Part shown: piece by piece, positions 1 to 11,037 of the stretch | Layout of the letters: each line of letters starts with the position of its first letter | Numbering within the stretch: the stretch's first letter is position 1 | Source: Deltaproteobacteria bacterium | Lineage (GTDB): Bacteria; Desulfobacterota; Syntrophia; Syntrophales; JAAYKM01 | Assembly (NCBI GenBank): GCA_019136935.1 | Contig: JAGVTI010000173.1 | Span: forward strand, 1 to 11,340 | Length of the DNA stretch: 11,340 nucleotides | Direction: 5' to 3' | Notes under the pieces: generated by a model | The model's input: the letters and a program-made list of their open reading frames with translations, nothing else | Databases searched by the model: none | Told to the model about the DNA's origin: nothing | Position numbers and translations under genes: made by a program

Positions 1-802
1 CCGGTGTTCTGACCAGGGATACCGCGTCGGCAATCCAGCGGATCGGGGGCACCGGATTCCCGGGTACGCCATGAATGATCACATGGAACAGCATGTGGGT
101 GGGATCGGGCGCCAAAGCCGTCACATCCCCCATGACGACATCAACCGCACCCTCCCAGAAATCGTTGTCGTGGGCATCGCAACACCCGCTGAAGGGCCTC
201 CAGTGAAGATCGAATTCCCTGCCGGCGCTGTTTTCCAGTTGAATGGCATGTCCGTATTGCAGGTCCATTTCCGTCAGGGGCAGGAGTGAATGCCATCCCT
301 CCTCATCCAGCAACCGGCATGCCGACGTCGCCTCTTTCCGGGGAACAAGGACATCGATGTCAGCCATAGGCCGGGCACCGTTGTTCTGATAGTAAAGCAG
401 CGAAAGGGGAGCGCCCTTGAGAAGCATCGTTCTGATCCCAGCCGACTGAAGCCGTTTGACAACCCGAGCTATTTCGTGAAACAGGGTCTGATTTTTACTC
501 CAGGACTGACGATAGACACCCTTGAGTTTCCCCATGCCGGGTTCATCCACCCCCTGTTGCCGCAGATTGGTATAAAGAAGGGGTAGCAAACGGAACGAGC
601 CTTGATCGAGCTCTCTCTCCATATCCATCCTGGATTGCCATTTCTTCCAGGCGGAAACGGCTTCATCACCGTGCATGAGAGCCGCTTTCAGGAGCAGTTC
701 CTGATCCGGCGTCGGAAAACTGTAATACTGAAGATCGGTCAACTTATTCGATGTGAGGGTAAAAACCCCGTGGCAAAAGGGGAGGGGAAAACTCCCCGGC
801 AT
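1..802 (-). CDS. NTP_transf_5-type nucleotidyltransferase, 3' end cut by window edge
   Basis: This reading frame stays open from the window edge to position 865 and is not closed within the window, so the C-terminus is missing. The translation has the hallmarks of the uncharacterised nucleotidyltransferase family NTP_transf_5 (Pfam PF14907). These are an N-terminal helical part (ELLLKAALMHGDEAVSAWKK, then RLLPLLYTNL), the signature LLKGAPLSLLYYQNNGARPM followed by ADIDVLV with the paired aspartates at codons 361-359 and 355-353, and FDLHWRP near 217-197. The DxD pair is expected to bind metal and nucleotide. The real substrate of the family is unknown, but members often sit beside PqqD-like and lasso-cyclase-like genes, which fits the gene immediately upstream. 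The start is unsure. ATG at 802 is the first ATG, but no good ribosome site precedes it; TTG at 844 is an alternative. Either start leaves little or no gap to the PqqD stop at 859, so translational coupling is likely. Confidence 0.8.
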   Translation of the reverse strand, partial: MPGSFPLPFCHGVFTLTSNKLTDLQYYSFPTPDQELLLKAALMHGDEAVSAWKKWQSRMDMERELDQGSFRLLPLLYTNLRQQGVDEPGMGKLKGVYRQSWSKNQTLFHEIARVVKRLQSAGIRTMLLKGAPLSLLYYQNNGARPMADIDVLVPRKEATSACRLLDEEGWHSLLPLTEMDLQYGHAIQLENSAGREFDLHWRPFSGCCDAHDNDFWEGAVDVVMGDVTALAPDPTHMLFHVIIHGVPGNPVPPIRWIADAVSLVRTP

Positions 803-858
803 TTGCGGCTGCAACGTCGGAAGCCGAACGTCCTCCCACGACAAAATTGCCGGGCCAA

Positions 859-1356
859 TTACTTTTCAACTTTGGTTGACGGCCATCCGGTGGCATCGAC
901 CTCATGGATCGGGTCAAGGACCAGCAAGTCCTGCATATCCGTGTATTTGTTCAGGACAGGCAGATGGAAAGCCGCTTTGGCTCCTCCCGGTTTTTTTTCA
1001 GCCAAGAACGCCTCCTGCACGCCCGCCGTCTCATCCCCATCATGGGCAGCAATGAGACCCTCCTGCCGTAATTCTTCCAGAAATGAGTGAACCGCATTTT
1101 CCTCGTCACCTGACGGAAATTCATAGGACTGCCGGATCATCCCCAATATCTCCGCTCCAGTCATCCCCTTAAGGATGAACTCCCAGATCTCGGCTCCGAC
1201 TCCCACGAGGCTGTAATAGTTACCCGTATCGAGGTTCAGGACAACCGTTTCCCCATCGATGTTTTCATGAACGACATTCGGCTCGTTGATCTTGAAACGC
1301 TCACCATTTTCCATCATGCTATTCTCAACCCCATCATACTGGATTTTTTGAACCAT
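859..1356 (-). CDS. PqqD-like peptide-binding protein with a leader-like C-terminal tail
   Basis: The first 105 residues or so form a PqqD-type winged-helix domain (RiPP recognition element). Recognisable parts are ENIDGETVVLNLDTGNYYSL (31-50), GAEIWEFIL (54-62) and a C-terminal helix SFLEELRQEGLI. Such domains bind leader peptides and hand them to modifying enzymes. At 165 residues the protein is clearly longer than a stand-alone PqqD of about 90. After a flexible link (KKPGGAKAA), residues 130-159 read FHLPVLNKYTDMQDLLVLDP and then IHEVDATGWP. The F-x-x-P-x-L start resembles the Y-x-x-P-x-L motif that lasso-peptide leaders use to dock on PqqD-type domains. I remember similar DMQDLL-LDPIHEVD tails in other PqqD-family proteins but cannot search for them. 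ATG 1356 gives the longest form; ATG 1317 or 1314 are alternatives that keep the whole domain. A strong promoter lies at 1508-1537 and the nucleotidyltransferase follows directly. Confidence 0.85.
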   Translation of the reverse strand: MVQKIQYDGVENSMMENGERFKINEPNVVHENIDGETVVLNLDTGNYYSLVGVGAEIWEFILKGMTGAEILGMIRQSYEFPSGDEENAVHSFLEELRQEGLIAAHDGDETAGVQEAFLAEKKPGGAKAAFHLPVLNKYTDMQDLLVLDPIHEVDATGWPSTKVEK

Positions 1357-1634: not shown

Positions 1635-2615
1635 TCAGCTCATGAGCCGGCCCGATGCCTCGTCGAAGGCCTTCTCATTTTCCGCTTGATACAACTTTTC
1701 ATAATCGATGAGTTCCTCCGTTGTAACGTTGTGAAGGGATAGCCACTCCCCCCGCGGAACCGTTTGATGGGGACGGCTCTTCCCCACCAGGCCGAGACAG
1801 TACCGGCAAGCATTAAGGGGCGATGTCGAACGGAAATACCCGATCAGCGTGTCGAGAAAACCAGCCCCTCGGCTGATTTGAATGCCGTCGGCTCCCGGTT
1901 TAATCGTGCATCCGTCGAGCATTTGTGCGATGGCCCCGGCCTGTGCGCATTTGTAGACGAAACCGTGATCGATGGAATGACAATCCCAGCGGTGAGCCAT
2001 TTTACAGGTATCGTAAATTCTCTGAACCAGGAACTCGTCGGAGGTCCCCTGCAAGGCAAAGGTCATGCGAAAATTTTCATAAGATTTCATATTGATTTCA
2101 ACTTTGAGGGCTTTCATCCTTGCCCGTAAAAGAGAGACCGCATCGGCATCCATTTGGGTATTCGGGTACACGGATATTTCAATTAAATCAAATGATTTCA
2201 GTATGTTGTCTGCAAACTTTTCCAGAAGGAGGCCATTTGTCAGTAACATCAACCGGCGGCCGATCCGGCTTCGACGAACCGCCTTTGCCAATGCCGCCAG
2301 GTCCGGATGCAGCAAAGGCTCTCCCCCCACTATTTTGACGTATTCAGCCCGGTATGAACGGGACAGGGCGTACAAATCCCGGTATACTTCCGACGGATCG
2401 GCCCATGACGGTTTACAGACCGGAGACGCGTGATTGCAGTCCAGGCATGTCATATTGCAGTGCCCGACGGCATTGATTTCACAGCTGTAAGACGGTTCGA
2501 TTTTCCCCAGGCGATACCGGGAGCCGCTGTTTTCGATAGGGCTCCCTTTTCGGCAATGGGACATAAGCAGGAAAGGCACGATTTTACAGATATTTTGCAG
2601 CATCAAATGATACAA
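1635..2615 (-). CDS. Radical SAM enzyme with extra C-terminal cysteines
   Basis: The protein has the radical SAM cluster motif CNMTCLDC (C53, C57, C60), which binds the [4Fe-4S] cluster that cleaves S-adenosylmethionine. It also has the GGEP motif (97-100), which contacts the SAM amino group, in VKIVGGEPLLHPDL. Further cysteines at C204, C212, C223, C236, C270 and C273 suggest an auxiliary iron-sulfur cluster in a short SPASM- or twitch-like region. The spacing does not match a standard SPASM domain that I can name. The length (326) suits a small substrate-binding radical SAM enzyme. The substrate is unknown; a PqqD-like gene directly downstream makes a peptide a reasonable guess. The start is uncertain: TTG 2615, TTG 2606 and ATG 2603 all follow a GGGGGGAG ribosome site, and all keep the domain. 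The gene lies 94 bp behind the GYD gene. A carbohydrate or capsule enzyme remains possible, since similar proteins occur in such clusters. Confidence 0.85.
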   Translation of the reverse strand: MYHLMLQNICKIVPFLLMSHCRKGSPIENSGSRYRLGKIEPSYSCEINAVGHCNMTCLDCNHASPVCKPSWADPSEVYRDLYALSRSYRAEYVKIVGGEPLLHPDLAALAKAVRRSRIGRRLMLLTNGLLLEKFADNILKSFDLIEISVYPNTQMDADAVSLLRARMKALKVEINMKSYENFRMTFALQGTSDEFLVQRIYDTCKMAHRWDCHSIDHGFVYKCAQAGAIAQMLDGCTIKPGADGIQISRGAGFLDTLIGYFRSTSPLNACRYCLGLVGKSRPHQTVPRGEWLSLHNVTTEELIDYEKLYQAENEKAFDEASGRLMS

Positions 2616-3032: not shown

Positions 3033-3503
3033 TCAGTACGTTTCGGCGGCAAACCTGGCCGGCCTCGGGTTGACCAGCCTCTCGTAATCCCGGTAAGCCA
3101 GGCGGAACAGCTCCGTATGGGATCCCGCGTTGAAACAGATGTACTCATCATCGGCCAGGCTCTTTTCCACGTAGACATCCATGTCATAGAGATTGCCGAA
3201 AGGAGGCATGGCGCCGATTTCGCAGTCCGGAAACCTGTCTTTGAATTCGGATTCATCCGCCAGGACGACATTCTTCGACGACACGACGGCCTTCAGGAGA
3301 TCGAAATCCACGTGCCGGGTCGCCGGCAGAACAATCATCGCCATTTTCCCGTCAATCTTGACCATGACGGTCTTCGCCATCTCTTTTCCCGGGAGATGGG
3401 CGGATTCGGCGATTTCCTGCGCCGTATAGGCGGTGGAATGCCTGATCGTGACATACTTGATCCCCTGATTATCCAGGAACTCCCTCAATTTACGCAGCGG
3501 CAT
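3033..3503 (-). CDS. YbaK/ProX-type aminoacyl-tRNA deacylase
   Basis: The 156 residues match the YbaK/EbsC/aminoacyl-tRNA synthetase-associated domain (Pfam PF04073) over their whole length. Visible features are the conserved lysine K44 in KTVMVK, GAMPPFG (97-103), and FNAGSHTELFRLAYRDYERL (124-143) forming the end of the fold. Proteins of this family act in the cytosol and hydrolyse wrongly charged aminoacyl-tRNAs such as Cys- or Ala-tRNAPro, which prevents mistranslation. Substrate specificity cannot be read from the sequence. Some branches may act on other substrates. ATG 3503 has an AAAGGAG site six to seven bases upstream, so this start is firm. It is the first gene after the promoter at 3787-3815 and is followed by the GYD gene. 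Confidence 0.9.
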   Translation of the reverse strand: MPLRKLREFLDNQGIKYVTIRHSTAYTAQEIAESAHLPGKEMAKTVMVKIDGKMAMIVLPATRHVDFDLLKAVVSSKNVVLADESEFKDRFPDCEIGAMPPFGNLYDMDVYVEKSLADDEYICFNAGSHTELFRLAYRDYERLVNPRPARFAAETY

Positions 3504-4284: not shown

Positions 4285-7200
4285 CTAATCCTCTTCGGCA
4301 TCCAGAACCTCACGGATCGTCATGGAAACCTGGTCCATCATGAAGGGTTTTTGAATAAAGGCCTTGACGCCCCGGTTCAGGATCGTCTTGGCCTCACCGT
4401 TCAAGCTGTAACCGCTGGAGAGAATGGCCTTGACCCGCGGATTGATCCGCTTGAGGTCTTCAAAGGTTTCTCCGCCGCTTCGGCCCGGCATGATCATATC
4501 CAGGATGACCAGGTCGATTTCATCCCGATGCGCCTGGTAGATTTCCAGGGCCTCCCGACCGCCCGCCGCCCGGAAAACCCGGTAGCCCAGCGTCTGCAGG
4601 AGATCGCCCGTCACATCGAGAATCGTCGGTTCGTCATCGACGACCAGCAGGGTTTCCGTGCCCCGGAGAACGGTCCGGGACTGCGCTTTCTCGGCTTTCA
4701 ACGCCATCCGTGAGGCGGGCAGGTAGAGATTGAATGTCGAGCCTTTCCCTTTTTCGCTGTAAACATTGATCATCCCCCCGTGGCCCCGGACAATTCCGAA
4801 AACGGTCGCCAAACCCAGGCCCGTTCCCCGCCCCATCTCCCTGGTCGTAAAGAAGGGTTCGAAGATCCTCTGGCGGGTTCTTTCATCCATGCCGACACCC
4901 GTATCGGTCACGGAAAGCTTCACATAGTCCCCCGGCGCCACATCGTTCGCCTTGGCATAGAGCGGATCCAGCTTGACATTGGCCGTCACCAGGTCCAGTT
5001 CCCCTCCTCCCGGCATGGCCTGCCAGGCATTCAGGTAAAGATTGAGGAGCACCTGCTCTATCTGTCCCCGATCCACCTCCGCATTCCAAAGATCGGAAGC
5101 GAATTTCCTGTGGATGACGATTTCCTTTCTCGTCCTGCTGAACATGTCCGCCGTCTTGTCGACAAGATGGTTCAAATCGGTCGGTTTGACTTCGTATTTT
5201 CCTCCCCGGGCAAAACCGAGGAGCTGCCTCGTCAGGTTCGCGCCGCTGACAACCTGGCTCTCGATTCCCTTCAGCCGTTCGTAACACGGGTTGGACCGCT
5301 CCAGGGTGAACAGCATGAGCGACGCATATCCCTGGATTCCCATGAGAATGTTATTGAAGTCGTGGGCAATCCCCCCGGCCAGGGTCCCGATGGCCTCCAT
5401 CTTCTGTGCCTGGATGAGCCGTTCCTCCAGTTTCCTCTGGTGGGTCATATCCTGGCAGGTCTGGAGATACCTGCCGTCGGTCATGTAAACGGAATGGATG
5501 CGGATGATTTTATCCGCCCCGTCCTTGCACCGGACCGTCACCGTTCCGTCCATGACATTTCCCGGCACGGGCTTTTCGTAGTGGTGATGCTTCCAGAGGG
5601 TCCGGATCTTCTCCCGGTATTCCCCGTCGGGATATATTTTTTCGAACCAGTCGTCCTTGGTCGGAATTTCCCCGAGGGTGTAGCCGAAAATTTCCGTAAA
5701 GCGGGCATTGAAGTACTCGAATCGCCGGCCCGAATCCATGAGAGAAATGCCGACGGGCAGCTCTTCCGCCAGGAGGTGAAACCGTTCCTCGCTCTCCCGG
5801 AGCGCCTCTTCCATGCGCCGACGATCCGTGATGTCCCGGATGGATTCAATGGCGCCGTAAACCTTCCCGTCGCTGTCGCATAAAGGCCCGGCCTTGGCCC
5901 ATAACCACCGCCCCCGGCCCCGGGGTCCCGGGACGCCCGTTTCCACCAGGAGGCAGCCGTCCCGGTTGACACAGCGGTCGTATTGGTTCTGCGCCAAACC
6001 GGGATGAAGAACCAGATCGGTCAGCAGGGGCCGGCGCACGCCGTATAAGGGCAGGGCGTATTCATAATTTCCCTTCCCGAGCATGTCGTCGCTGCGGATA
6101 TCCGTCAGCTCTTCCATCGCCCGGTTCCAGAGGATCACCTTCCCCTCCAGGTCGATGGCAAAGGTTGCATCCGGCAGAAATTCGGCGATATCCCGCAGGA
6201 GGCGTTCCGATCGTGCAATGGATTTCAGGAGAACCTGCTTTTCCCGTTCCTCCCGACAGAAATCGAGGCGGGCAGCCAGAAGCGGGACGATGAAGTCCGC
6301 AAGGTTTTCCAGGCTCCGGCGATCCGTGTCCGAATAATCCCTCGCCCTGTTCGCCGCGACCAGCACACCGACCAGCCTCCCCTGCAGGGCCATCGGCACG
6401 GCCAATGCCCGGTCGATCGGAACATGACCCTCGGAAACGGCGAAAGGCGTGTTGGCCAGGCAGGTTTTGCCCTCTTGAAGCGCTTTCCCCCACGGTCCCG
6501 ACCAGGTTCCGGGAGAAAAGGCAACCCCGCCGAGGCGGCGGTTGATCAGAACGCTCTCCTGCATCGCGTGAACGACCAGGCTGCCGTCGGTCTCCAGGTA
6601 ACCCAGGAAACCGTCGCGGCTCTCGAGAAAATCCAGGATGATCCGAACCAGGCGGGTATAAACCTCCTCCCCCGGATGCAGCAGGAAGGCCTGGGCGATT
6701 TCGTTGCGGATCTGAAGTTCCCGTTCGAACCGGACCCGCTGGGTCACATTATCGAAGATGGAAACCACTTCGCCGGAGGGAAGGCGGTAAACGCGGGTTT
6801 CGTGCCACCCTTCCCGGATACCGTCGCGGTAATGGGTTGCAGGAATGTACTCGGCTTCCCCCGTCCGGTGAACACGCCGGAGGACTTCGATAAGACCCGT
6901 TTTGCGCAGTTGCGGGAAAACGCTCAGGACATCCCAGCCGATGACGTCTTCCCGGCGGACGCGCGCGATCCTTTCCGCCGCCCGGTTGAAATCGGTCAGC
7001 AGGAAATCCTGTTGATCCGGGATCGGCGCCATGACGGCCACACCGCTGCCGAGGTGGTCGAACATTTCCCGGTAGCGGGTTCCATTGTCCCCGTCGGCCC
7101 CTTCCTCCGTCGAGGAATCGGGGGAAACCTCCCGGTTCGGCCCGGCAACGCTTAAATGGCGGTCCTCCCCGGCGTTGTTTTCCGGAGGTCCGGTCGCGCC

Positions 7201-7368
7201 GAGAATGCGCTCCACGTGATTCCGGAGACTTTCGATCTCCCGTTTAAGGCCGTCTTTCCGACGTACGCACTGTTCCATTTCGGCCAGTTTTCTCCCCATA
7301 CCGGCCAGTTCATCGAAAAGTTGCGCTTTTGTCGCTCCCTGTTCTTTCGTGTCTTCCCGTCGTTTCAT
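4285..7368 (-). CDS. Hybrid sensor histidine kinase (PAS-GAF-PAS-PAS-HisKA-HATPase-REC)
   Basis: This 1027-residue protein begins with a charged, coiled-coil-like segment (about 5-55) and then has a PAS domain (about 98-210), a GAF domain (about 225-370), and two further PAS domains (about 385-515 and 525-645). The kinase core follows. The phosphorylated histidine is H669 in GGIAHDFNN, the N box is NLYLNAWQAMPGGG (776-789), the G1 box is DTGVGM (822-827), the F box is FEPFFTT (836-842), and the G2 box is GRGTGLGL (846-853). It ends in a receiver domain with acidic pair D911/D912, phosphoacceptor D957 in LVILDMIMPG, and K1007. No transmembrane segment or signal peptide is seen, so it is a cytosolic sensor. 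The ligand cannot be told from the sequence. ATG 7368 follows a GGGGG run. No DNA-binding regulator is adjacent; the HD-GYP regulator 2 kb upstream is one possible partner. Confidence 0.95.
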   Translation of the reverse strand: MKRREDTKEQGATKAQLFDELAGMGRKLAEMEQCVRRKDGLKREIESLRNHVERILGATGPPENNAGEDRHLSVAGPNREVSPDSSTEEGADGDNGTRYREMFDHLGSGVAVMAPIPDQQDFLLTDFNRAAERIARVRREDVIGWDVLSVFPQLRKTGLIEVLRRVHRTGEAEYIPATHYRDGIREGWHETRVYRLPSGEVVSIFDNVTQRVRFERELQIRNEIAQAFLLHPGEEVYTRLVRIILDFLESRDGFLGYLETDGSLVVHAMQESVLINRRLGGVAFSPGTWSGPWGKALQEGKTCLANTPFAVSEGHVPIDRALAVPMALQGRLVGVLVAANRARDYSDTDRRSLENLADFIVPLLAARLDFCREEREKQVLLKSIARSERLLRDIAEFLPDATFAIDLEGKVILWNRAMEELTDIRSDDMLGKGNYEYALPLYGVRRPLLTDLVLHPGLAQNQYDRCVNRDGCLLVETGVPGPRGRGRWLWAKAGPLCDSDGKVYGAIESIRDITDRRRMEEALRESEERFHLLAEELPVGISLMDSGRRFEYFNARFTEIFGYTLGEIPTKDDWFEKIYPDGEYREKIRTLWKHHHYEKPVPGNVMDGTVTVRCKDGADKIIRIHSVYMTDGRYLQTCQDMTHQRKLEERLIQAQKMEAIGTLAGGIAHDFNNILMGIQGYASLMLFTLERSNPCYERLKGIESQVVSGANLTRQLLGFARGGKYEVKPTDLNHLVDKTADMFSRTRKEIVIHRKFASDLWNAEVDRGQIEQVLLNLYLNAWQAMPGGGELDLVTANVKLDPLYAKANDVAPGDYVKLSVTDTGVGMDERTRQRIFEPFFTTREMGRGTGLGLATVFGIVRGHGGMINVYSEKGKGSTFNLYLPASRMALKAEKAQSRTVLRGTETLLVVDDEPTILDVTGDLLQTLGYRVFRAAGGREALEIYQAHRDEIDLVILDMIMPGRSGGETFEDLKRINPRVKAILSSGYSLNGEAKTILNRGVKAFIQKPFMMDQVSMTIREVLDAEED

Positions 7369-7415
7369 TTTTCCCCCGGTTGGACGATTTTTTAAACCTT
7401 CTCCCCTTTCACCAC

Positions 7416-7474
7416 GGAATCGCCCCGGCCCGGCGAAAACCGCAACGCGATTCAGTCCGTTCCGGGGCGATTCC
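7416..7474. repeat. Perfect 13-bp inverted repeat upstream of the hybrid kinase
   Basis: GGAATCGCCCCGG at 7416-7428 is matched exactly by its reverse complement CCGGGGCGATTCC at 7462-7474, with 33 bp between the arms. It lies 48 to 106 bp before the kinase start codon. It could be an operator, a folded leader RNA, or part of a terminator for the flavodoxin gene, but no T-run follows on either strand. Confidence 0.75.
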
Positions 7475-7475
7475 C

Positions 7476-7505
7476 CTCACGCCCGGCGGGCTTGCCGCCG
7501 GTGAG
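7476..7505. repeat. Strong GC-rich hairpin next to the 13-bp inverted repeat
   Basis: CTCAC plus CGGCGG pairs with CCGCCG plus GTGAG around a five-base loop GCTTG, with a three-base bulge (7481-7483). That is eleven base pairs, most of them G-C. It starts two bases after the inverted repeat ends. Without a following T-run on either strand it is not a standard intrinsic terminator, although it lies between two genes of the same direction and might attenuate read-through from the flavodoxin gene. Confidence 0.65.
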
Positions 7506-7598
7506 ACTCAGGTCCCCCAAACGGCGATCCCATACCACGTTACACATGATAAAACAACTTTTCTTTCAGACACTTAGAACAACCGGTTCGAATCCGGC

Positions 7599-8054
7599 TC
7601 AGTAAATACCCATCCGGCAGCCGCCGGACAACACGCCTCCCAGCTCGCGGCATTTTTCCAGATCGTCGGGTTTGATGTCCCCCCTGGCAATCACGGGTTC
7701 GTAGACCTTTTTGAATTTATATCCCAGGGCGATCCGCTCGATGGCCCGGAGGGCCCCCGTTCCGTCATTTCCCGCGCTGATGAAAACGACATAGGGCTTC
7801 CGGAAAACCTTGTTTTCCACGGCATAAAACGTCCGGTCGAAAAAATCCTTGATCATCCCGGAGAGGTAGCCGAAATTCTCGGGGGAACCGATGGCTATGC
7901 CGTCGGCCCACAGGAGATCCTCCGCCGTCGCGGCGGCGGCCCTCTTCATCACGACCTCCACCCCTTCGATCGACGAGGCCCCTTCGAAAACCGCCTCCGC
8001 CATTTTCTCCGTATGTCCCGTCTGGCTATGGTAAACGATGAGTATCTTTGTCAT
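7599..8054 (-). CDS. Flavodoxin-like FMN-binding protein
   Basis: The 151-residue protein has the flavodoxin fold. Strand KILIVYHS is followed by the FMN phosphate loop SQTGHTEKMA (10-19), then ADGIAIGSPENFGYLSGMIK with DFFDR (50-74) and PYVVFISAGNDGTGALRAIE (87-106), which together line the flavin isoalloxazine ring. Proteins of this type (flavodoxins and WrbA-like or FMN-reductase-like relatives) carry electrons or reduce quinones in the cytosol. The chain is about the length of a classical short flavodoxin, but the GSPENFG segment is more like the NAD(P)H-oxidoreductase branch, so the exact role is open. ATG 8054 has only a distant AAGGA site. It stands alone between the tandem repeat region and the kinase leader; no clear promoter was found. 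Confidence 0.85.
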   Translation of the reverse strand: MTKILIVYHSQTGHTEKMAEAVFEGASSIEGVEVVMKRAAAATAEDLLWADGIAIGSPENFGYLSGMIKDFFDRTFYAVENKVFRKPYVVFISAGNDGTGALRAIERIALGYKFKKVYEPVIARGDIKPDDLEKCRELGGVLSGGCRMGIY

Positions 8055-8130
8055 GGCTTGTTGAACCGTCCTTCTTCGAAATAGAATGATTACTTGGGCA
8101 ATCGGGATAAGAACAAGATCCTTCGCTGCG

Positions 8131-8301
8131 CTCAGGATGACAACGGCGGTTGGCGCCTCAGGATGACAACGGTGGTTGGCATCTCAGGATGACAACGGTG
8201 GTTGGCATCTCAGGATGACAACGGCGGTTGGCGCCTCAGGATGACAACGGTGGTTGGCATCTCAGGATGACAACGGCGGTTGGCGCCTCGGGATGACAAC
8301 C
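8131..8301. repeat. Tandem array of 26-bp repeats, six full copies plus a partial one
   Basis: Full units start at 8131, 8157, 8183, 8209, 8235 and 8261, followed by a partial unit of 15 bases at 8287-8301. The common part is CTCAGGATGACAACGG. Two versions occur: units 1, 4 and 6 have C at position 17 and GC at positions 25-26, while units 2, 3 and 5 have T and AT. The two differences always go together. The first unit overlaps an imperfect palindrome GATCCTTCGCTGCGCTCAGG (8117-8136) that looks like a REP-type element. There are no variable spacers and the unit length is not a multiple of three, so it is neither a CRISPR nor a coding repeat. Confidence 0.95.
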
Positions 8302-9487: not shown

Positions 9488-9506
9488 AACTTTTTACGGC
9501 TTCATC
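9488..9506. repeat. Dispersed 19-nt repeat, copy 2, overlapping a stop codon
   Basis: AACTTTTTACGGCTTCATC is identical to 8337-8355. On the minus strand it reads GATGAAGCCGTAAAAAGTT, and its TGA at 9504-9502 is the stop codon of the HD-GYP regulator gene. The regulator's end may therefore have been set by the repeat's arrival. Confidence 0.75.
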
Positions 9507-11037
9507 GGGACTGCCGCAGCACCAGTTTGACCAGGCAATCGACCACCTTTTCGTCAAACTGGGTATTGCGGTTCCTGAGCAGTTCGACGACGGCGTCCTC
9601 TACCTTCATGGCTTCCCGGTAGGGGCGCGTATTGGTCATGGCGTCATAGGCATCGACGGCACACAGTATTCTCGACAGCAGGGGAATGTCCTCCCCCGCC
9701 AAGCCGTCCGGGTAACCCCGCCCGTCCCAGCGTTCGTGATGGTGCAGGATGATGTTGCGTTCATTCCCGAAGATGACCATGAACTGCAGAATGCTGTCCC
9801 CGATTGCCGGGTGCGTCTTGATAATCGCATACTCGTCATCGGACAGCCGGCCGGGCTTCAACAGGACGCTGTCCGGGATGGCGATCTTTCCGATGTCATG
9901 AAGAATCGCGGCTATTTTCAGGGATTCCAGCTCGCTTTCCCGGCAGCCCATGGCGTCCGCGACCGCCAGCGACAATTCCATGACGCGATAGGAATGTTCT
10001 TCCGTGTAGTGATCGCGAAGCTGGATGGACGCCACGAGCGATTTGAAGGTTTCGATCAGGTTGATATAGAGGCTCTCGTAAAGAACCTTGTTTTCCAGAT
10101 TCAACGACGCCCTGTTCGTCAGGCTCTGAATATGCCGCAGGTCGTTCCGGCTGACCCCCGGTCCCCGGCTGTCCTTTTTAACCGTCAGAACGCCGAACAC
10201 CCGGTTGCGGATCATCAGAGGGGCACAAATAACGGTCGGCAGGAATTCCCCTTTTTCGCCGCTTTTGGCGACCACCGCCTCCCGTTTTTCCACCACCTCG
10301 AGAAACAGTTTCGTCAAAAAAGGCAGCTTTTTATCGAGGTAATCCTGGACGTCGCCGCTTTTGATCACCTGGGGATGAAACAGCTTTTCATCCTCGTCGT
10401 AAAGCAGGAGAGCGCCGCTTTCGCCATCGACGACCTGCATGGACATATCCACGATCTTCTGGAATATCTGGTCGTTCCCTCCGGACGCGTTTTCGATGTT
10501 TTCATAAATATAACTTTTAAGGGAAAGTTCCTCTTTCTTATTGACAAGCTGGATGGGTTCGGCGCCCCGCGCCTGAACGCCGTTCTTGGAAATGGCGGTT
10601 TCCTGAAGAGAAACGTCGATCTTGAAAAGAAGGGTGTCGATATCGAAAGGCTTGGCAAGAAAATCGACGGCCCCCTTCTTCATGGCCGTGACGGCCAGGT
10701 GCGTTGCAGGATAAGCCGTAATGACCAATACCGCCGTTTCCGGTTCGACTTCCCGAATCCGGGTCAGCAGCTCCATCCCGCTCATACCCGGCATCATCAT
10801 GTCCGTGATGACCAGGTCATAGGCCTGTTCCCCGATTTTGCGGATCGCCTCCGTACCGCTTTCAGCCTCCGCGATATCGTAATCGGAATTAGACAGGCCT
10901 TCTACAATCAATTGCCTCAGACCGGTATCGTCATCGACGATGAGGATCTTCTTTCTTAACGACTCGAATCCCCCCGTTATGGCCGGTTGCGGCATCCTTC
11001 CCTCCTGATCCACACGGCGGGCAACCGGCCCGCACAT
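9502..11037 (-). CDS. Response regulator with GAF and HD-GYP domains, likely c-di-GMP phosphodiesterase
   Basis: A receiver domain (about 29-145) has the acidic residues D35-D37 in ILIVDDD, phosphoacceptor D79 in LVITDMMMPG, T107 and K129. A GAF-like sensor domain follows (about 175-315, including SGALLLYDEDEKLFHP and CAPLMIRNRVFGVLTVKK), then an HD-GYP domain (about 325-505). The latter shows EEHSYRV (346-352), the HD pair in ILHDIGKIAIPDSVLLKPGR (H380, D381), the GYP triplet 441-443 in WDGRGYPDGL, and VDAYDAMT. Such proteins hydrolyse cyclic di-GMP when phosphorylated, usually favouring motility. Two starts are equally well supported: ATG 11037 with GGAGGG five bases upstream, and ATG 10995 with AGGAGG five bases upstream. 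The second begins closer to the receiver domain and looks more natural. The gene follows the flagellar small protein after 41 bp or more. Confidence 0.95.
   Translation of the reverse strand: MCGPVARRVDQEGRMPQPAITGGFESLRKKILIVDDDTGLRQLIVEGLSNSDYDIAEAESGTEAIRKIGEQAYDLVITDMMMPGMSGMELLTRIREVEPETAVLVITAYPATHLAVTAMKKGAVDFLAKPFDIDTLLFKIDVSLQETAISKNGVQARGAEPIQLVNKKEELSLKSYIYENIENASGGNDQIFQKIVDMSMQVVDGESGALLLYDEDEKLFHPQVIKSGDVQDYLDKKLPFLTKLFLEVVEKREAVVAKSGEKGEFLPTVICAPLMIRNRVFGVLTVKKDSRGPGVSRNDLRHIQSLTNRASLNLENKVLYESLYINLIETFKSLVASIQLRDHYTEEHSYRVMELSLAVADAMGCRESELESLKIAAILHDIGKIAIPDSVLLKPGRLSDDEYAIIKTHPAIGDSILQFMVIFGNERNIILHHHERWDGRGYPDGLAGEDIPLLSRILCAVDAYDAMTNTRPYREAMKVEDAVVELLRNRNTQFDEKVVDCLVKLVLRQSR

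Follow-up and report, generated by a model that had tools for sequence, protein, structure and literature searches.

A PqqD-Type Recognition Domain Joined to a Highly Conserved Leader-Like Tail in a Syntrophales Contig and Its Relatives

Positions 1 to 11,340 of contig JAGVTI010000173.1 (assembly GCA_019136935.1) of a Deltaproteobacteria bacterium (Syntrophales; JAAYKM01), a stretch referred to below as the window, encode a protein in which a PqqD-type ribosomally synthesized and post-translationally modified peptide (RiPP) recognition element (RRE) is followed by a variable linker and a C-terminal tail. The tail comprises residues 130 to 165, exactly window positions 862 to 969, and reads FHLPVLNKYTDMQDLLVLDPIHEVDATGWPSTKVEK. 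It is the best-conserved part of the protein among its homologs. On balance, we favor the interpretation that the RRE is fused to its own precursor-like substrate and that the tail is the substrate to be modified. The extreme conservation of the tail, its leader-type segment, the added strand that this segment forms in structure models, and an association between residue 88 of the domain and residue 130 of the tail point to an RRE and a precursor-like peptide in one chain. The parts of the protein are as follows.

859 to 1356, minus strand: PqqD/RRE protein with C-terminal tail (longest open reading frame [ORF], 165 amino acids; Pfam PqqD, 49.8 bits against a cutoff of 23.4)
1051 to 1251, minus strand: PqqD domain by Pfam, residues 36 to 102 (E value, 4.5e-13; modeled fold from about residue 20 to 105)
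1093 to 1095, minus strand: codon of Ala88, a groove position by alignment to PDB chains (Asp in TbiB1, LppB, and TfuB1; Gln in PbaB1)
970 to 1050, minus strand: variable linker, residues 103 to 129 (1.16 bits per column over residues 103 to 128; predicted local distance difference test score [pLDDT] of 57 at residues 111 to 120)
943 to 969, minus strand: predicted leader-like docking segment FHLPVLNKY, residues 130 to 138 (pLDDT of 93 at residues 131 to 140; strand at 135 to 138)
916 to 942, minus strand: TDMQDLLVL, residues 139 to 147, joining the leader-like and core-like parts (by conservation; short helix predicted at 141 to 147 with lower confidence)
880 to 915, minus strand: core-like invariant segment DPIHEVDATGWP, residues 148 to 159 (by conservation; pLDDT of about 60, unpacked in the models)

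The true start of the protein is probably at 1314 to 1317, because homologs mostly begin at ORF residue 14 or 15. An earlier, sequence-only reading of this DNA had described a complete PqqD-type domain, a flexible link, and then the tail, and this layout is borne out by the ORF, Pfam, and conservation. The protein is a PqqD-family sequence with the winged-helix RRE fold. Its nearest NCBIfam model is the lasso PqqD chaperone NF033536, and since its score of 59.3 bits lies under the curated cutoff of 80, we regard it as lasso-like without calling it a lasso PqqD chaperone.

Conservation of the tail and its predicted docking

A search of 5.8 billion proteins yielded 253 relatives, and the tail is present in all 120 of these that were listed. 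In 65 nonredundant homologs taken from 121 sequences, the mean information is 3.73 bits per column for the tail (scored over residues 130 to 160), 2.61 for the PqqD domain, and 1.16 for the linker, so that the homolog alignment proposed in the sequence-only reading sets the tail far above the linker. The best 80 of 170 related stretches from a scan of genome contigs were used as loci. All 80 carry the tail, a biased rate, since the tail itself (LL[LV]LDPIH[ED]) served as one of the two patterns in the scan; a first tail pattern missed 13 of the 80, and the counts given here cover all of them. By record title, the loci come from Chloroflexota (21), Cyanobacteriota (9), Bacteroidota (8), Nitrospirota (7), Thermodesulfobacteriota (6), Pseudomonadota (4), Acidobacteriota (4), Myxococcota (3), Ignavibacteriota (2), Gemmatimonadota (2), Bacillota (2), Planctomycetota (2), Lentisphaerota (1), Verrucomicrobiota (1), and others (8), that is, from 14 named phyla and more. 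Asp148 is retained in all 80 loci, Pro133, His151, and an aromatic residue 130 (Phe, Tyr, or Trp) in 79 each, and Thr or Ser at 139 in 76. Synonymous codons are mixed at the invariant residues (for Asp148, GAT in 40 loci and GAC in 40), and it is therefore the peptide, not the DNA, that is conserved. The bare motif [YWF]xxPx[LVIFA] also occurs in 36 of 688 unrelated small ORFs of the same loci. A FxxPxL-type motif by itself is thus weak evidence at the sequence level, and it is conservation that lifts the tail above chance.

The distribution of the tail is broad but patchy. Searching 60 genomes with the whole protein (59 relatives besides the window's own genome) gave matches in 5. In the window's own genome and in G015, which has two copies, the match covers both domain and tail; in G009, G014, and G043 it is weak and extends little, if at all, beyond the PqqD part. 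The tail profile matched in 8/298, 6/398, 12/396, 28/377, 3/141, and 3/138 genomes of six samples, each of which includes at least one center genome picked because it matched. One cyanobacterial plasmid record, from Crinalium epipsammum PCC 9333, carries the tail module, operon included. None of 37 pattern matches in viral contigs was confirmed as the tail, and no tail match was found in phages. The strings DPIHEV, DMQDLL, LLLLDPIH, and DPIHDV gave no match in literature text, and our literature searches did not turn up an RRE-precursor fusion of this type.

In an AlphaFold2 model of the window protein (30-row alignment), pLDDT is 93 at residues 131 to 140, including a strand at 135 to 138, compared with 57 at 111 to 120, 77 at 121 to 130, and about 60 at 141 to 160. 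A model of an Oscillatoria homolog from a 65-row alignment (rows 34 to 55% identical) has the matching block at pLDDT 94 and its strand at the same alignment positions, and in both models the DPIHEVDxxGWP end is of low confidence and unpacked. The best Foldseek matches are TbiB1 with leader (5v1v and 5v1u), with TfuB1 also among the best; both are lasso RREs solved with their leaders. According to the available part of Popov et al. 2026 (PMC13381572), the leader motif Y/W-x-x-P-x-L/V occupies two pockets in the LppB and PbaB1 complexes, and adjacent residues lengthen the sheet. The F-x-x-P-x-L segment, which the sequence-only reading had recognized as a leader-type pattern, looks in the models like a leader of the lasso or linear polyphosphorylated peptide (LPP) type docked in an RRE groove. 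In both models, made for different organisms from different alignments, F-x-x-P-x-L-N-K-Y is placed as an added strand; groove contacts are deduced from strand assignment and pLDDT, which do not distinguish docking in cis from docking in trans. In members resembling the window protein, docking of the tail in the protein's own RRE-type groove is likely. A tail-profile search of PDB chains gave no leader chain; its sole match, Tektin, arose by chance.

In the same source (PMC13381572, seen in part), Asp70 of LppB hydrogen-bonds Tyr-16 of the leader, and Gln79 of PbaB1 helps hold the Trp. The LppB residue aligned to Ala88 would be this Asp70, judging from its spacing to Phe74. Phe130 of the window tail needs no Asp or Gln partner at position 88. 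In a first set (the 80 loci plus the window), Asp88 occurred with 3/7 Tyr/Trp130 tails against 0/73 of the others, although columns 71 and 94 outranked 88 when residue groups were used. The raw count of an enlarged set, 11/29 against 7/240, included misaligned short rows. A cleaned set held 223 rows with a nearly full domain, Pro133, and Phe, Tyr, or Trp at 130, Tyr/Trp rows being taken first in thinning. Below 50% domain identity, Asp88 accompanies 8/16 Tyr/Trp tails against 0/55 Phe tails (P = 1.2e-6; rank 1 of 375 column-residue tests), and below 70% identity the counts are 8/16 against 1/106 (rank 1 of 490 tests). The groove Asp is usually absent with Phe tails and occurs mainly with Tyr/Trp tails. 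Conservation and the two models support the earlier proposal of a recognition domain fused to its substrate or docking peptide; the 88/130 association adds to this support, although it does not reach significance once the tree is taken into account.

Gene neighborhood and search for a separate precursor

Two genes on the same strand flank the tail protein in the window.

2 to 844, minus strand: NTP_transf_5 nucleotidyltransferase, directly downstream, truncated by the contig end (Pfam PF14907, 121.5 bits against a cutoff of 31.2)
1635 to 2615, minus strand: radical SAM protein, upstream (Pfam Radical_SAM, 44 bits against a cutoff of 29.5)

Neighbors were counted in the 80 loci within up to 10 kb per side, on either strand, by profile searches in all frames at an E value of at most 1e-5. 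HprK-like kinases are found in 70 loci, any GT2 glycosyltransferase in 70, NTP_transf_5 in 58, ABC exporter-type genes in 43, and GT4-like glycosyltransferases in 27; sulfotransferases (9), SPASM radical SAM proteins (8), and radical SAM proteins of the window type (2) are rarer. The window's radical SAM protein, of a type seen in 2/80 loci, is accordingly an accessory outside the core of the module. Where at least 8 kb lies downstream (50 loci), the counts are 48 for HprK-like, 48 for GT2, 42 for NTP_transf_5, and 30 for ABC. Around further matches, 20 chosen regions hold an HprK-like gene in 19, a nucleotidyltransferase in 19, and GT2 in 20, and the region without the former two is L184, an 8.4-kb contig. 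Walker A is retained in 58 of 60 aligned members of the HprK-like family, and RefSeq annotates the Crinalium copy as HPr kinase. The one ABC exporter that was scanned has ABC_membrane and ABC_tran domains and scores below the cutoff for MsbA; no exporter was seen in the window. Gene clusters 8 and 10 of a first ORF picking were judged to be antisense artifacts over GT2 and PqqD genes, and that picking was replaced.

By profiles, a single frame of 661 residues in G1461 spans the RRE, the tail, and the HprK-like kinase, and Pfam calls PqqD alone in it. Single frames of 660 to 661 residues with PqqD, tail, and HprK-like kinase are present in L186 (7177 to 9156, minus strand) and L149 (88 to 2070, minus strand).

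A separate precursor was sought among 688 ORFs of 25 to 130 amino acids, located from 3 kb upstream to 9 kb downstream in the 80 loci and overlapping larger genes by at most 30%, and no small-ORF family occurs in more than three loci; the most recurrent small ORFs are those of L012, L023, and L024, all Oscillatoria. In 43 genomes reached via the loci, no frame holding any of the 47 tail matches is shorter than 145 residues, and three have one flagged internal stop, and the tail frames of the genome samples are all at least 144 amino acids long except for one 22-amino-acid frame with a stop. Proteins consisting of the tail alone gave 7 matches in one search and 165 in another (120 listed), of which 123 were read; some have Y-x-x-P, three have a hydrophobic N-terminal stretch, and most come from short contigs. 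They were not counted as standalone precursors, as many start inside the PqqD domain or linker or look frameshifted. The best candidates are P0232, P0238, P0239, and P0240, on contigs of less than 1.5 kb. In P0126, P0239, and P0240, likewise on contigs of less than 1.5 kb, a hydrophobic N-terminal stretch precedes the same tail, and these are possibly membrane-anchored or exported tail peptides, or else artifacts. If real, the short tail-only proteins would be an unfused form and would strongly support the precursor interpretation.

Among representatives of 26 recurrent gene clusters (six without a Pfam match), there is no SpI-like leader peptidase and no macrolactam cyclase, no search having been aimed at either, and no N-methyltransferase family appears among the annotated clusters. 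A single phmmer query with the B2 protein of L041, in which Pfam confirms Transglut_core3, matched L041 and L012 alone, both times adjoining tailless PqqD genes, and this one-query search found no B2 leader peptidase beside a tail module, as a lasso system would have. In L041, from a Bacillota metagenome-assembled genome, a tailless PqqD, Transglut_core3 (B2), HprK-like, and NTP_transf_5 set (4865 to 8192) lies about 2 kb from the tail module (9983 to 10459), so that a lasso-type processing set stands beside an RRE-tail module, much as lasso and LPP clusters stand together in Bacilli. L012 (Oscillatoria sp. PCC 10802) has a second tailless PqqD with a B2-like frame (2 to 722, minus strand) about 9 kb from its tail module. 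A lasso interpretation of the core was dropped, as this one query gave no B2 beside tail modules and as the core is fixed.

Elsewhere in the window, Pfam identifies a tRNA-editing (YbaK-like) domain protein (3033 to 3503), a GYD-domain protein (2710 to 2958), and a flavodoxin-like protein (7599 to 8054), all on the minus strand and with no sign of belonging to the module. The long minus-strand ORFs at 4285 to 7368 and 9502 to 11037 resemble, by eye, a hybrid sensor histidine kinase and a response regulator with an HD-GYP-like domain.

Possible functions of the tail

If the tail is the substrate, the F-x-x-P-x-L segment would dock in the groove of the RRE, either that of its own chain or that of a second one, and would thereby present the exposed, invariant DPIHEVDxxGWP to the enzymes of the cluster. 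The HprK-like kinase, the NTP_transf_5 nucleotidyltransferase, and the short GT2 glycosyltransferases could then phosphorylate and/or glycosylate the core segment, and the ABC exporter, in loci possessing one, could move the product. With a core that differs so little from phylum to phylum, the expected product is a single conserved molecule, like PQQ (pyrroloquinoline quinone) or mycofactocin, and not a diversifying antibiotic. That the tail recurs next to genes for kinase-like proteins and sugar transferases points to a peptide-modification pathway not yet described. More tentatively, this pathway might be widespread, with an RRE carrying its own precursor and kinase-like, nucleotidyltransferase, and glycosyltransferase enzymes making a single conserved phospho- or glycopeptide that serves at least a dozen phyla as a cofactor, a signal, or an anchor for glycans.

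Several observations weigh against a modified substrate. The core is, by sequence, nearly invariant, unlike LPP and lasso cores, and it has no Ser or Thr at a fixed place; 13 of the 80 loci have none after Asp148, and phosphorylation of Ser/Thr at one fixed core site was therefore dropped as a universal mechanism, although at least one Ser or Thr is present from residue 136 on in 79 of the 80. Among 54 genome-sampled members, the spacing [FYW]xxPx[LIVMF] is exact in 25 and shifted in 2, and 27 have no such motif, yet 50 of the 54 keep GW after the core. Of the 29 members without the exact spacing, 19 come from the Cyanobacteriota sample, read D-A-Q-E-[LM]-L-L-x-D-P-I-H-E-[VI], and belong to genomes mostly of 1.6 to 2.5 Mb; in this motif-less branch docking must use other contacts or be lost. 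Since the core persists where the motif is gone, it reflects a wider constraint than the leader motif does. The kinase-like family scores under curated cutoffs in every representative scanned (Hpr_kinase_C, cutoff of 33.3 bits, two representatives at 31.9 and 26.5 and a third without a match; HprK_rel_A, 32.5 bits against 200). No HprK-like match was found in the window's own assembly, which is 72.7% complete and whose contig ends in the next gene; there, an HprK-GT2 protein query matched just a glycosyltransferase stretch. No peptidase was recognized among the 26 cluster representatives. As for the 88/130 association, A37, an unrelated site without a known role, ranks second (11/16 against 7/55), so that lineage contributes to it, and the tree-corrected test is not significant. 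The domain tree is poorly resolved, and since it offers just 2 supported independent pairs (in which Asp88 moves the same way in 1.5 on average and the opposite way in 0), a sign test cannot reach significance; the unsupported best tree implies at least 11 changes at residue 130 and at least 8 of Asp88.

Some of these points would suit an unmodified tail serving as a docking tether, its leader-like half gripping the domain and its invariant half recruiting either the nucleotidyltransferase or the HprK-like kinase to a different substrate, such as a glycan carrier, the clusters being rich in glycosyltransferases. Near-invariance of the core is what a protein-binding site would lead one to expect. 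The missing fixed Ser/Thr, the lack of a recognized peptidase, the persistence of the core without the leader motif, and the ability of RRE-tail and HprK-like kinase to share one chain also speak for a tether. We nevertheless consider a tether rather unlikely. The search around the genes yielded no other peptide substrate, and a tethered leader lying in the groove would compete with one; moreover, the GWP repeats and the altered ends LDPPMPGL (L124) and LDPPHPGL (L141) resemble core variation more than a binding site. The GWP...GWP repeat stands at the core end in L007, L008, L009, and L059 and in 13 of the 120 listed proteins (e.g., P0038), mainly of the Nitrospirota type, while L124 and L141 retain the leader motif and have no GWP.

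Groove docking, as predicted in both models, would also fit a pseudo-leader that closes the groove and gives way to a separate precursor or to a partner. Such self-inhibition seems improbable, as no separate precursor family was found (ORFs overlapping larger genes lay outside the survey) and as it does not account for conservation being highest beyond the docking segment. Least probable of all is an inert tail whose sole role is to complete or stabilize the fold. The first half of the tail is indeed predicted to be ordered on the domain, and filling of the groove may stabilize such domains, LppB being insoluble when made alone according to the portion of PMC13381572 seen, but the most conserved residues, D148, P149, H151, G157, W158, and P159, are of low confidence and unpacked in the models.

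A fusion of RRE and substrate would matter beyond this contig. The part of a 2025 RRE survey (PMC12710340) at hand reports that 21% of PF05402 proteins exceed the size of a discrete RRE without other Pfam annotation, and PqqD-tail proteins of 140 to 200 amino acids would belong to that group. RRE-dependent peptides are usually mined by matching an RRE to a short precursor gene in its vicinity; were the tail the substrate, pathways of this kind would escape notice, their precursor being concealed within the recognition protein. The fusion, if true, would also give a role to the HprK-like/NTP_transf_5/GT2 clusters of Chloroflexota, Cyanobacteriota, Nitrospirota, and others, and the near-fixed core makes one specific product directly testable.

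Comparison with known systems

The gene set around the tail resembles the LPP/paeninodin toolkit, and no separate precursor was found. The LPP systems (LppA, LppB, LppK, LppS, LppD, and LppN), as far as the available text of Popov et al. 2026 (PMC13381572) describes them, have an RRE with [Y/W]xxP-type leader docking, an HprK-like kinase, an NTP transferase, an MsbA-like transporter, and glycosyltransferase-rich clusters. The tail loci share the NTP transferase (in the window, at 2 to 844) and the abundance of glycosyltransferases, and they resemble the LPP systems in their predicted leader docking, their kinase-like genes with scores below curated cutoffs, and their ABC exporter-type genes. 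Their precursor, according to the same text, is a separate protein of 35 to 200 amino acids with a variable C terminus and the motif YxxPxVLxHQxIxFETxxS; the kinase polyphosphorylates Ser3, an SpI-like peptidase frees the variable core, and Bacillota dominate (PMC13381572). The tail peptide, which reads FxxPxLxKYTDMQDLLLLDPIHEVD, differs in being fused to the RRE, in its near-invariant core, and in its occurrence in many phyla.

The lasso systems of paeninodin and pseudomycoidin share the leader motif and the RRE type, and their HprK-like kinase (PadeK/PsmK) and nucleotidyltransferase (PsmN) are paralleled by the kinase-like and nucleotidyltransferase genes at the tail loci; PsmN is linked to hexoses on the phosphorylated Ser of pseudomycoidin in the part of PMC9266682 that was available. 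Unlike them, the tail module has no B2 that our one-query search could find, no lasso core, and a fused precursor.

In the PQQ (PqqA/PqqD) and mycofactocin pathways, an RRE guides the handling of a peptide whose modified portion is conserved from one organism to the next; there, the precursor has a gene of its own, and the chemistry is of the radical SAM kind. At the tail loci, in contrast, radical SAM genes are rare, as counted above. In borosins, the substrate peptide forms the C terminus of the very protein by which it is served, and the tail peptide is similarly the C-terminal end of its own recognition protein, although the fused partner is a recognition domain and not a modifying enzyme. 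The RRE-tail system would work like the LPP and lasso pathways, while its fused and nearly invariant peptide sets it apart as a distinct variant.
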